Under the pieces are notes generated by a model, which worked only from the letters and a program-made list of their open reading frames with translations, had not been told where the DNA came from and did no database searches. A DNA stretch of 38,334 bases. It comes from Candidatus Uhrbacteria bacterium (lineage in GTDB: Bacteria; Patescibacteriota; Patescibacteriia; UBA9934; GWF2-40-263). The translations under genes were made by a program, and so were the position numbers. Location of the stretch: NCBI GenBank assembly GCA_016235605.1, contig JACRJW010000034.1:1-38334 (forward strand), in the 5' to 3' direction. Below, piece after piece: positions 13,441 to 16,210 of the stretch; positions within the stretch are counted from its first letter, which is position 1; the number at the start of each line of letters is the position of its first letter.

Positions 13441-13469
13441 TTGACAAAAACCCAATTTTTCTGTATTGT
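13441..13469 (+). promoter_or_regulatory. sigma70-like promoter of the DGR target gene
   Basis: TTGACA-17 nt-TATTGT. Confidence 0.75.
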
Positions 13470-13559: not shown

Positions 13560-14297
13560 ATGGAAGCCATGATCGAGTTGGCGCTCCGGCGCCAGGCTGA
13601 AGAAGCACTGGCCCACGCTCTCGCGAACCCGGCGAAGTCCGAGATCGCGCGCGTCGCGTACCAGATGGTGATCAACGGCCAGACCGAGGCCGAGGTGCGC
13701 GCGTCGAAGGTGCACACGCCCAAGGTCGACCTCGCCGAGGAACGCCGCGTCGCTCTGGAGGCGAATTTCCGCAAGCGCGGGTTTGAGATCTCGGTTCCCA
13801 AGCCGAGCGTCTCCAACACCACGCTCAAGCGGTGGCGTCGCGAGGGACGAGAGTTGTTCTACCGTCCTGCGACCGCCCTCATGAGCTACGCCGCGTGGAT
13901 GTCCGCCCACGGCCAGGCCAAGCACTGGACTGTGGTCAACGAGAGCGACCGCGCGAAGGTCGGTTGGGAAGACGGAAAGGCGGGCTACTGGTTCACGACG
14001 CAGATCGTCCCTGCCTGCCCCCAGCTCAACACGAGCTGGAACGACCTCACCGCCTCGACGAAGCTCCTCTGCCTCGAGGAGTATGTGATCGTCTACTGGA
14101 CACACCACGACCTCACGGGTATCTGCATCGACGTCAGTACCTGGTGCTGGCTCCGTACGCGCTTCGGTCGGTGCGCCCTCAATGCCATCGTCACTGACGG
14201 TGAGGTGGGGGTCTCTAGGGACGATCCCGACAGCCTCTCGGTCCCGTATGCTTACGAAGGTGGCCGCGCCGTGGAAGTGGTCAAGAATGCTGCTTGA
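13560..14297 (+). CDS. DGR target (variable) protein; C-terminal variable-repeat region
   Basis: SD aggag then ATG at 13560. The last ~40 codons (RFGRCALNAIVTDGEVGVSRDDPDSLSVPYAYEGGRAVE) are a mutated copy of the TR at 14625-14746. Confidence 0.88.
   Translation: MEAMIELALRRQAEEALAHALANPAKSEIARVAYQMVINGQTEAEVRASKVHTPKVDLAEERRVALEANFRKRGFEISVPKPSVSNTTLKRWRREGRELFYRPATALMSYAAWMSAHGQAKHWTVVNESDRAKVGWEDGKAGYWFTTQIVPACPQLNTSWNDLTASTKLLCLEEYVIVYWTHHDLTGICIDVSTWCWLRTRFGRCALNAIVTDGEVGVSRDDPDSLSVPYAYEGGRAVEVVKNAA
14156..14277 (+). repeat. DGR variable repeat (VR), 122 bp
   Basis: Aligns without gaps to 14625-14746 (offset 469); 16 mismatches, 13 at TR adenines. 3' end is an identical GC-rich tract (ggtggccgcgccgtggaag). 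Confidence 0.93.
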
Positions 14298-14306
14298 ACC
14301 TTGACC
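14279..14306 (+). promoter_or_regulatory. Inverted repeat immediately 3' of VR (candidate DGR homing hairpin/cruciform)
   Basis: GGTCAAG-14 nt-CTTGACC beginning 2 nt after the end of TR/VR identity. Confidence 0.5.
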
Positions 14307-14368
14307 CCCTGCCCTGCTCTTGCTACCAACCGGTACTAGAGTAGGGCTATTAATTTTGCTTTGAATTT

Positions 14369-14377
14369 TGCTACAAT
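14369..14377 (+). promoter_or_regulatory. Candidate extended -10 promoter for the TR RNA
   Basis: TGCTACAAT about 250 nt upstream of TR; no clear -35. Confidence 0.35.
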
Positions 14378-14624
14378 CATTTTGGTGAAGGTTCGTAGAC
14401 TGACAAGCAGAAACTTGTCGGTTACCAACATCCTACTGTCACCCACGAGCATCCGGTTCAAAATGACCGGAGAAGTCGGTTACGGTGAGTAAACAGTTGA
14501 ACCACTTCGTGCCGTTTCTAAGATGGATCGCCACTGGGTCTGTCCGTCCGAATACATTTCCGGATCCCGGAATTCAGGAGGTGACCCACGGGTTCCCTCT
14601 GGTGAGTAAGGAAGGAAGCGGCGC

Positions 14625-14746
14625 AACGCGCTTCGGTCAGAGCGCCCTCAATGCCAACGACAACGACGGTGAGGTGAGGGTCAACAGGAACGATCCCGAC
14701 AACCTCTCGGTCCCGTATGACAACGAAGGTGGCCGCGCCGTGGAAG
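14625..14746 (+). repeat. DGR template repeat (TR), 122 bp
   Basis: Adenine-containing (AAC/GAC-rich) copy of VR: aacgcgcttcggtcagagcgccctcaatgccaacgacaacgacgg...gacaacgaaggtggccgcgccgtggaag. Confidence 0.93.
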
Positions 14747-14756
14747 CCGTCAACTG

Positions 14757-15131
14757 TTAAGACACGAGACCCAACCGGCCTCGTGTCTTCTTTCGCCAGC
14801 CTCCAAGCATACGTCCAATTTCCATGAGCTGGTTTTCCCGGTAGATGTAACCCTCACGTTTATAAATTCCTAGGTCATACGTGAGACGTACGAGGATTTT
14901 CACAAGGTCGAGTGTTCGTTGCAGTCGGTCGAGTAGGACGAGACGTTCAGGGATCGGTAGAGAATTTGCTTCCCAGATTCCTTCGATGAGTTGAAGTGTA
15001 CGCATTTTTAATGTTTCACCAACGGCGTGCCGTTCTGTTTTTGGAAACCTGATGACGTCAGTGTGCAGAAGCTTGTACCATTCATACAATTTATGAACCA
15101 ATCCGAATTCTTCACCGGGAAACCCAGTCAA
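14757..15131 (-). CDS. avd: Avd-like DGR accessory protein (four-helix bundle family)
   Basis: GLVHKLYEWYKLLHTDVIRFPKTERHAVGETLKMRTLQLIEGIWEA...LDRLQRTLDLVKILVRLTYDLGIYKREGYIYRENQLMEIGRMLGGWRKK, typical of the Avd/23S-IVP four-helix-bundle family; adjacent to TR and RT. Only a TTG start in the present frame. Confidence 0.82.
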   Translation of the reverse strand: MTGFPGEEFGLVHKLYEWYKLLHTDVIRFPKTERHAVGETLKMRTLQLIEGIWEANSLPIPERLVLLDRLQRTLDLVKILVRLTYDLGIYKREGYIYRENQLMEIGRMLGGWRKKTRGRLGLVS

Positions 15132-15150
15132 CCATCGATCGAATTCGGTC

Positions 15151-15161
15151 GGGGGGGGGGG
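15151..15161 (+). repeat. Homopolymeric G tract (11 G) at the Avd/RT head-to-head junction
   Basis: ggtc-GGGGGGGGGGG-tacttc. Confidence 0.95.
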
Positions 15162-15208
15162 TACTTCAAAGGCATACCTTATTTAAGGATGTCATTGCGC
15201 TAGAAAAT

Positions 15209-16210
15209 TTGTTTGAAGCTTGGGAGGTATTCCATCGTGGGAAAATGGCCAAACAAGATGTCCTGGATTTCTCCATGAGGCTTGAGGACGAATTATTTGA
15301 CCTAGCGCACGACCTTGGAAACGGATCGTACCATCATGGCTGGTATGAGCGATTTTACATTCACGACCCCAAGCGCAGGTATATAAGCAAAGCAAGTGTG
15401 CGGGATCGAGTCTTACACCAAGCGCTTGTTGGCGTGGTGGAACCGATGTTTGATCCAACCTTCATTTTCGATTCGTTTTCTTCTCGTAAAGGGAAGGGGA
15501 CACATGCGGCGATTGACCGTCTTGAAGATTTTTTAAGACGCGGATCTCGCAATGGCTCGAACACGATTTATGCGCTCAAATGCGATGTATCGAAATTTTT
15601 CGATTCGATACAGCATGATGTGCTTATGGGGATGCTCAGACGGCGTATCATCGACGAACCGTTGCTAGGACTTGTAGGGCAGGTCGTTACAAGTCACACG
15701 TCTCATCAAGGAACGTCGTGCGGGCTTCCACTTGGGAATGTCACAAGCCAACTTTTTGCGAACATCTATCTCAATGGATTCGACCATTGGGTGAAGGAGC
15801 ACCTGAGGGTACGATGGTACATTCGGTTTTGTGATGATTTCATTTTGCTTCACGAGAGTCGTCAGTTCTTGGAATCAGCCATTGTGCAAATTGACTCGTA
15901 TCTATCGCAACATCTCCATCTACAGCTTCATCCGTATAAAGTTTCTCTTCGGACATATCAGCAAGGCATCGATTTTCTTGGTTGGGTGTTGAGGCCAAGT
16001 GTACGTACGATGCGAACGAAAACGTGCAGGCGCCTATCTCACCGTGTGGATGGTCTGGTGTCACAGTATAGAGAAACAGGAACCCTACAAGAGCGTTTCA
16101 GTGAGACCGTCCAGTCTTGTTTAGCGGCCTTTGATCACGGTCAGGGATTTAGGAATCAGGAGCGACTCATTCATTCAGTAAGACAGATGAAGTTTAAGAA
16201 TCTTCAATAG
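15209..16210 (+). CDS. DGR-type reverse transcriptase
   Basis: RDRVLHQALVGVVEPMFDPTFIFDSFSSRKGKGTHAAIDRLEDF; YALKCDVSKFFDSI; GLPLGNVTSQLFANIYLNGFDHWVKEHL; RFCDDFILL; GIDFLGWVL. The frame is open upstream to 15056; TTG 15209 is the first standard start codon in frame, but homology-like sequence (HTLFKDVIALENL) precedes it. Confidence 0.93.
   Translation: MFEAWEVFHRGKMAKQDVLDFSMRLEDELFDLAHDLGNGSYHHGWYERFYIHDPKRRYISKASVRDRVLHQALVGVVEPMFDPTFIFDSFSSRKGKGTHAAIDRLEDFLRRGSRNGSNTIYALKCDVSKFFDSIQHDVLMGMLRRRIIDEPLLGLVGQVVTSHTSHQGTSCGLPLGNVTSQLFANIYLNGFDHWVKEHLRVRWYIRFCDDFILLHESRQFLESAIVQIDSYLSQHLHLQLHPYKVSLRTYQQGIDFLGWVLRPSVRTMRTKTCRRLSHRVDGLVSQYRETGTLQERFSETVQSCLAAFDHGQGFRNQERLIHSVRQMKFKNLQ

Follow-up and report, generated by a model that had tools for sequence, protein, structure and literature searches.

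A diversity-generating retroelement (DGR) in an Uhrbacteria-like genome of the Patescibacteria is very probably phase-variable, a run of eleven Gs (G11) serving to switch avd and the reverse transcriptase (RT) gene together by slipped-strand mispairing; this reading rests on reading frames and on comparison of related loci. The locus lies within a window of 38,334 nucleotides (the whole stretch of DNA that was analysed) and is a complete DGR, with a target gene, a template repeat, an opposite-strand avd and an RT gene. At a broader level, cellular Patescibacteria DGRs are likely to be contingency loci of second order, with a single repeat that holds avd and RT in the register opening them jointly, so that targeted hypermutation would be turned on or off as one; related lineages use a tract in the middle of the RT gene. 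The features of the locus are:

13441 to 13469, + strand: promoter-like site TTGACA-17-TATTGT, upstream of the target gene (consensus scan, weak)
13560 to 14297, + strand: DGR target gene (open reading frame), 245 aa, with the VR at its 3' end
14156 to 14277, + strand: variable repeat (VR), from alignment with the TR
14625 to 14746, + strand: template repeat (TR), from alignment with the VR
14757 to 15175, − strand: avd, intact body 14757-15131, ATG start at 15175 out of frame at G11
14759 to 14789, + strand: 13-bp inverted repeat 3' of the TR, at the avd end (arms 92% complementary, 5-nt loop)
15093 to 16210, + strand: DGR RT gene, conserved body 15209-16210, proposed ATG at 15093 out of frame at G11
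15151 to 15161, no strand assigned: G11 homopolymer, proposed to switch avd and RT (basis: the frames at each tract length, and repeats recurring and enriched across 182 loci)

The accessory protein of a DGR was recognised in Avd, which matched the Pfam family bAvd (PF22296, 8e-11, above the cut-off) and the PHROG 'Avd protein of DGR' (phrog_3206, 7e-17). The RT matched PF00078 (1e-23) and phrog_1423 (5e-103), and its residues 175-181, LGNVTSQ, fit the DGR motif [LIVM]GxxxSQ. Its best solved relative is PDB 8ub7_A (1.5e-34), deposited under the title 'Reverse transcriptase', which we take to be the BPP-1 DGR RT. The closest named RT comes from a Candidatus Uhrbacteria MAG (79% identical), the window's genome is assigned to the same genus as a Candidatus Uhrbacteria record, and no GenBank phage RT was more than 60% identical. 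The bodies of the two genes are 79% (RT) and 89% (avd) identical to those of the sister locus L037, and both are otherwise open and conserved. The genome of the window holds three DGR RT loci, on contigs C8, C36 and C30. The third of these, L039 (G000:C30), has an RT (2747-1910, minus strand) frameshifted at motif 4, where there is no repeat, and an avd tract that is in frame; this RT may be dead or misassembled.

The sequence-only reading had claimed adenine-directed mutagenesis, on the basis of 16 mismatches over 122 positions between 14156-14277 and 14625-14746, 13 of them at TR adenines. Recomputing the alignment gave the same figures, and the claim is upheld: with Avd and a DGR-type RT adjoining the repeats, a DGR that mutates the 3' end of a target gene is the right interpretation. 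The even spread of mismatches over the four template bases that had been set in advance as the contrary pattern was clearly absent. In the ungapped alignment (offset 469; identity 106/122), the changes from TR to VR were A>T (6), A>G (4), A>C (3) and C>T (3); given 31 As in the TR, finding 13 of the 16 mismatches at A has a hypergeometric P of 6e-7. Strict similarity begins at 14160/14629 and holds up to 14277/14746, beyond which the copies diverge, as had been noted. The GC-rich 3' block GGTGGCCGCGCCGTGGAAG likewise does not differ between the TR and VR copies, and this shared tract would be compatible with a putative IMH. The VR spans the last codons of 13560-14297, so that it occupies the 3' end of a protein-coding target. 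Throughout the whole 1.2-Mb genome TR and VR match only each other, and no further VR for this TR was found.

Each of the three non-A changes of the window VR is a C>T whose immediate 5' neighbour has undergone A>C (AC->CT, in AAC, AAC and GAC codons), a detail that the sequence-only reading had not picked up. Across the 153 loci, among 182 related ones described below, in which an A-biased TR/VR pair was found, the C was altered in 4 of 32 cases where it followed an A>C, compared with 26 of 1761 where the A before it had any other outcome (Fisher P = 0.002). Of the four altered Cs, three are in the window VR itself. The RT may have produced the AC->CT changes by a tandem or slippage error. 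Mismatches at TR A numbered 2558 of 2713 in these 153 loci, a share inflated by the search, which demanded at least 70% of mismatches at A.

The target protein had no Pfam or PHROG match. Its homologues are 71% identical in G002 and about 46% identical in G068 and G038. The variable domain of DGR target proteins usually, if not universally, has a C-type lectin fold; this fold was sought with a structure model of poor confidence (pLDDT 66), which had no PDB match at E ≤ 0.001. Two genes of the target family are present in G068, L250 (G068:C18:5537-6265) and L247 (G068:C82), one of which adjoins a TR and an RT; the gene away from TR and RT may be diversified in trans. The promoter consensus scan gave 3 matches in the region against 2.0 expected by chance. 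The TR stretch contains no other recognisable gene, and the hairpin at 14759-14789, where the convergent avd ends, may act as a terminator or belong to the DGR RNA.

avd and RT are antiparallel and their 5' ends overlap by 83 bp, with G11 inside the overlap and the upstream RT ATG within the antisense avd coding sequence; the starts of both proteins are those proposed from the reading frames. The tract is read as poly-Pro codons in avd and poly-Gly codons in RT. On translation, G9 or G12 leaves both genes at full length (RT 371/372 aa, Avd 138/139 aa), whereas with G10, G11 or G13 avd and RT both stop within 36 codons. The length of the tract thus moves both genes in and out of frame, and since lengths 9 and 12 open both and 10, 11 and 13 close both, a single slip would toggle the whole mutagenic system. 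As assembled, with G11, the element reads as OFF, although the VR bears the marks of past activity; these frames come from one assembly, in which the length of a homopolymer may be off by one. The sequence-only reading took in neither the tract nor the out-of-frame state of avd and RT. The window's genome has five tracts of at least nine Gs, three of them at its three DGRs. The remaining two, G9 tracts on contigs C38 and C105, were considered as further DGRs and dismissed, as no DGR genes lie there. A MutS_I domain was not found in this genome; its absence would favour instability of such tracts.

The RT relatives were drawn, with their flanks, from 147 related genomes and from a 389-genome sample across the phylum, yielding 182 distinct loci, a few of which (L181-L184) were taken from named records. 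In 180 of the 182, avd runs antisense to RT; the clade thus typically has an inverted avd, in contrast to BPP-1 and the same-strand IMG/VR loci. A simple-sequence repeat is present between -600 and +1150 of RT in 147 of the 182 loci, and in 140 it falls in one of two hot spots, the avd/RT start and the RT interior between motifs 3 and 4. Over the 97 nt that precede the RT body repeats reach 6.46/kb, compared with 0.84/kb in the mid-RT zone and 0.02-0.04/kb in the flanks; the rest of the RT body has no repeat in any of the 182 loci. As expected of phase variation, slippage-prone repeats such as G11 are therefore greatly enriched over background in or near the 5' coding region. The repeat units vary at the same place (G, C, GA, CT, GT, ATTG and pentamers), and a quick tree of RT N-terminal parts implies at least 44 changes of tract type. 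Thirty-five loci have no repeat that reaches the set length; G6-G7 is present in six of them.

Length and ON/OFF state also differ among relatives, as they do in phase-variable genes: the tract is G11 in the window, G10 in the sister L037 and G13 in L056. Of the 117 loci with a tract at the start, 35 have an open avd and 80 a closed one that a shift of one or two bases would open, and all three frame classes are present (45/28/24), which argues against one fixed shift. By a hand count over 42 genomes of the family, about 32 of 139 tracts of at least nine Gs are at DGR avd/RT sites. Two genomes of one genus, G008 and G026, have 19 and 17 such tracts, several of them clustered away from DGRs; these are candidates for other phase-variable genes.

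At the second hot spot, some RTs are split over two frames, with the break at a poly-G, (GA)n or (CT)n repeat between motifs 3 and 4. In these loci (L044-L053, L067, L087, L110 and L201-L244) the repeat lies in a variable loop of the RT, and it would switch RT alone. The mid-type RT is in frame in 13 cases and out of frame in 15, two of the in-frame cases being AT runs that merely encode a motif; some loci were picked for a split-looking RT, and mid-type tracts are over-represented in the sample for that reason. Two readings of the split genes, as a conserved RT of two subunits or as the outcome of fixed programmed frameshifting, were rejected because the breaks fall at repeats and all frame classes occur. 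The exceptions are L039 and L054, a plain frameshift and a nonsense mutation.

If the two genes share one switch, avd and RT should open at the same tract lengths. Where the RT start is forced across the tract, the length class that opens avd and RT is common to both in 64 loci and discordant in none; in 3 further loci of this set an ATG is missing on one side. In control loci, where an RT ATG follows the tract, the class is common in 5 and not in 9. With unique opening classes, 38 loci agree against 0 (P = 7e-19; Fisher against the control, 8e-6). The agreement could have been an artefact of antisense frame openness, an explanation that we discarded since the control loci with their own ATG, although few, do not agree. 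The codon-coincident antisense phase is used in 34 of the 38 loci and may favour joint openness to some extent. Sixteen of the 64 two-gene loci are open in assemblies, near the third expected of a random frame. In 35 tract-bearing loci the RT has its own ATG, and only avd would be switched. Between the tract and the gene body, substitutions by codon position in close pairs, which are non-independent, were 166/108/275 for avd and 221/200/312 for RT; this third-position excess is supportive of coding on both sides of the tract.

Four other explanations were weighed against a DNA-level switch. With transcriptional slippage or programmed frameshifting, a constant share of the RT and Avd made would be full-length while the DNA stayed unchanged. 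Long homopolymers can indeed provoke slippage, and at any one time the majority of loci are out of frame (avd in 80 of 115); however, all three frame offsets are found, many loci are exactly in frame, and tetra- and pentanucleotide or long GA and CT repeats are unsuited to one-base polymerase slippage, which makes this explanation very unlikely. We consider it very unlikely that the DGR is constitutive and the G tract an incidental spacer, translation starting at TTG codons at 15131 (avd) and 15209 (RT). Such codons exist in the window and an RT ATG follows the tract in some loci, but a start at TTG 15209 would drop conserved residues ahead of LFxAW and the third-position substitution excess extends past the TTG starts. 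Nor would a spacer account for the roughly 200-fold enrichment of repeats with differing units at the same place, for the joint register of avd and RT, or for the tracts within RT between motifs 3 and 4.

A single repeat between divergent genes that sets promoter spacing by its length, as proposed for hifA/hifB, is a known design (PMC2651432). Here the tract lies inside conserved coding sequence of avd and RT, the joint codon register is kept, and mid-RT tracts would be unable to space an RT promoter, so that we find this explanation highly improbable. The same low probability attaches to a dead element, in which avd and RT would be decaying pseudogenes and the tract a chance frameshift or a fault of assembly. 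In its favour, neither gene is in frame in the window assembly, and the RT of the sister DGR on G000:C30 is broken at a point with no repeat. Against it, the bodies of RT and avd are otherwise open and conserved, nearly all loci have their break at the repeat, and a quarter of the two-gene loci, the 16 of 64, are currently open.

The locus resembles the DGR of Bordetella phage BPP-1 (mtd-avd-TR-brt) in its VR at the 3' end of the target, TR, Avd and DGR-type RT, as well as in the adenine-directed differences and the GC-rich 3' end common to TR and VR. It differs in that avd, located between TR and RT, is on the opposite strand and overlaps RT at their 5' ends, with a slippage-prone tract in the overlap; BPP-1-like IMG/VR loci, with a same-strand avd, are without such a tract. 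Among 80 IMG/VR loci, none of those with a same-strand avd had a tract at the avd/RT place, and of about 17 close loci, mostly with an antisense avd, only 3 did (Fisher 2e-7 against the cellular loci). A search of the 80 for length variants found no near-identical pair bearing a tract. The switch thus seems to be a feature of the chromosomal DGRs of Patescibacteria, the IMG/VR contigs being viral by database label. Roux et al. 2021 assign the DGRs of Patescibacteria to clade 2 (PMC8144416); these Patescibacteria/CPR elements are cellular and from the same phylum as the window. The window locus surely belongs with them, and by its phylum would fall in clade 2. The main text of that paper mentions neither frameshifts, homopolymers nor Avd (PMC8144416).

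The tract itself is akin to the SSR contingency loci of Haemophilus, Neisseria and Campylobacter, which also have G8-G13, di- or tetranucleotide tracts in 5' coding regions and all frame classes. What those loci switch is for the most part surface structures and restriction-modification genes, whereas here a targeted mutator would be switched. The pilin genes hifA/hifB of H. influenzae are likewise two divergent genes under one repeat, a (TA)n thought to change promoter spacing (PMC2651432); in the window, by contrast, one tract is decoded as codons by both genes on opposite strands. In the open-access literature, to which the search was confined, we found no description of a phase-variable DGR or of a DGR with slipped-strand mispairing. 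Provisionally, the repeat-controlled start of avd and RT is a new element in a DGR that otherwise belongs to a known kind. Taken by itself, the TR/VR finding is correct and ordinary; on present evidence, the surrounding switch merits specialist attention.

Under the phase-variable DGR that we favour, avd and RT would be transcribed divergently, with the one G11 in their overlapping 5' ends decoded on both strands, and replication slippage would alter the length of the tract. Both proteins would be made at the open lengths alone. By analogy with BPP-1, an RT-Avd complex would then copy the TR RNA with errors at adenines, and the cDNA would replace the VR. One slip would suffice to switch the system because retrohoming by BPP-1 in E. 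coli requires both bRT and Avd (PMC12875486). OFF cells would retain a working VR, and rare ON cells would diversify it anew.

A single repeat setting the frame of two opposite-strand genes is a rare arrangement. To our knowledge, how cellular DGRs avoid wrecking useful target proteins is an open question. If the model is true, a built-in stochastic ON/OFF switch would answer this problem of target protection, most cells being frozen while a few mutate, and it would also account for the many broken-looking RT and avd genes in assemblies.
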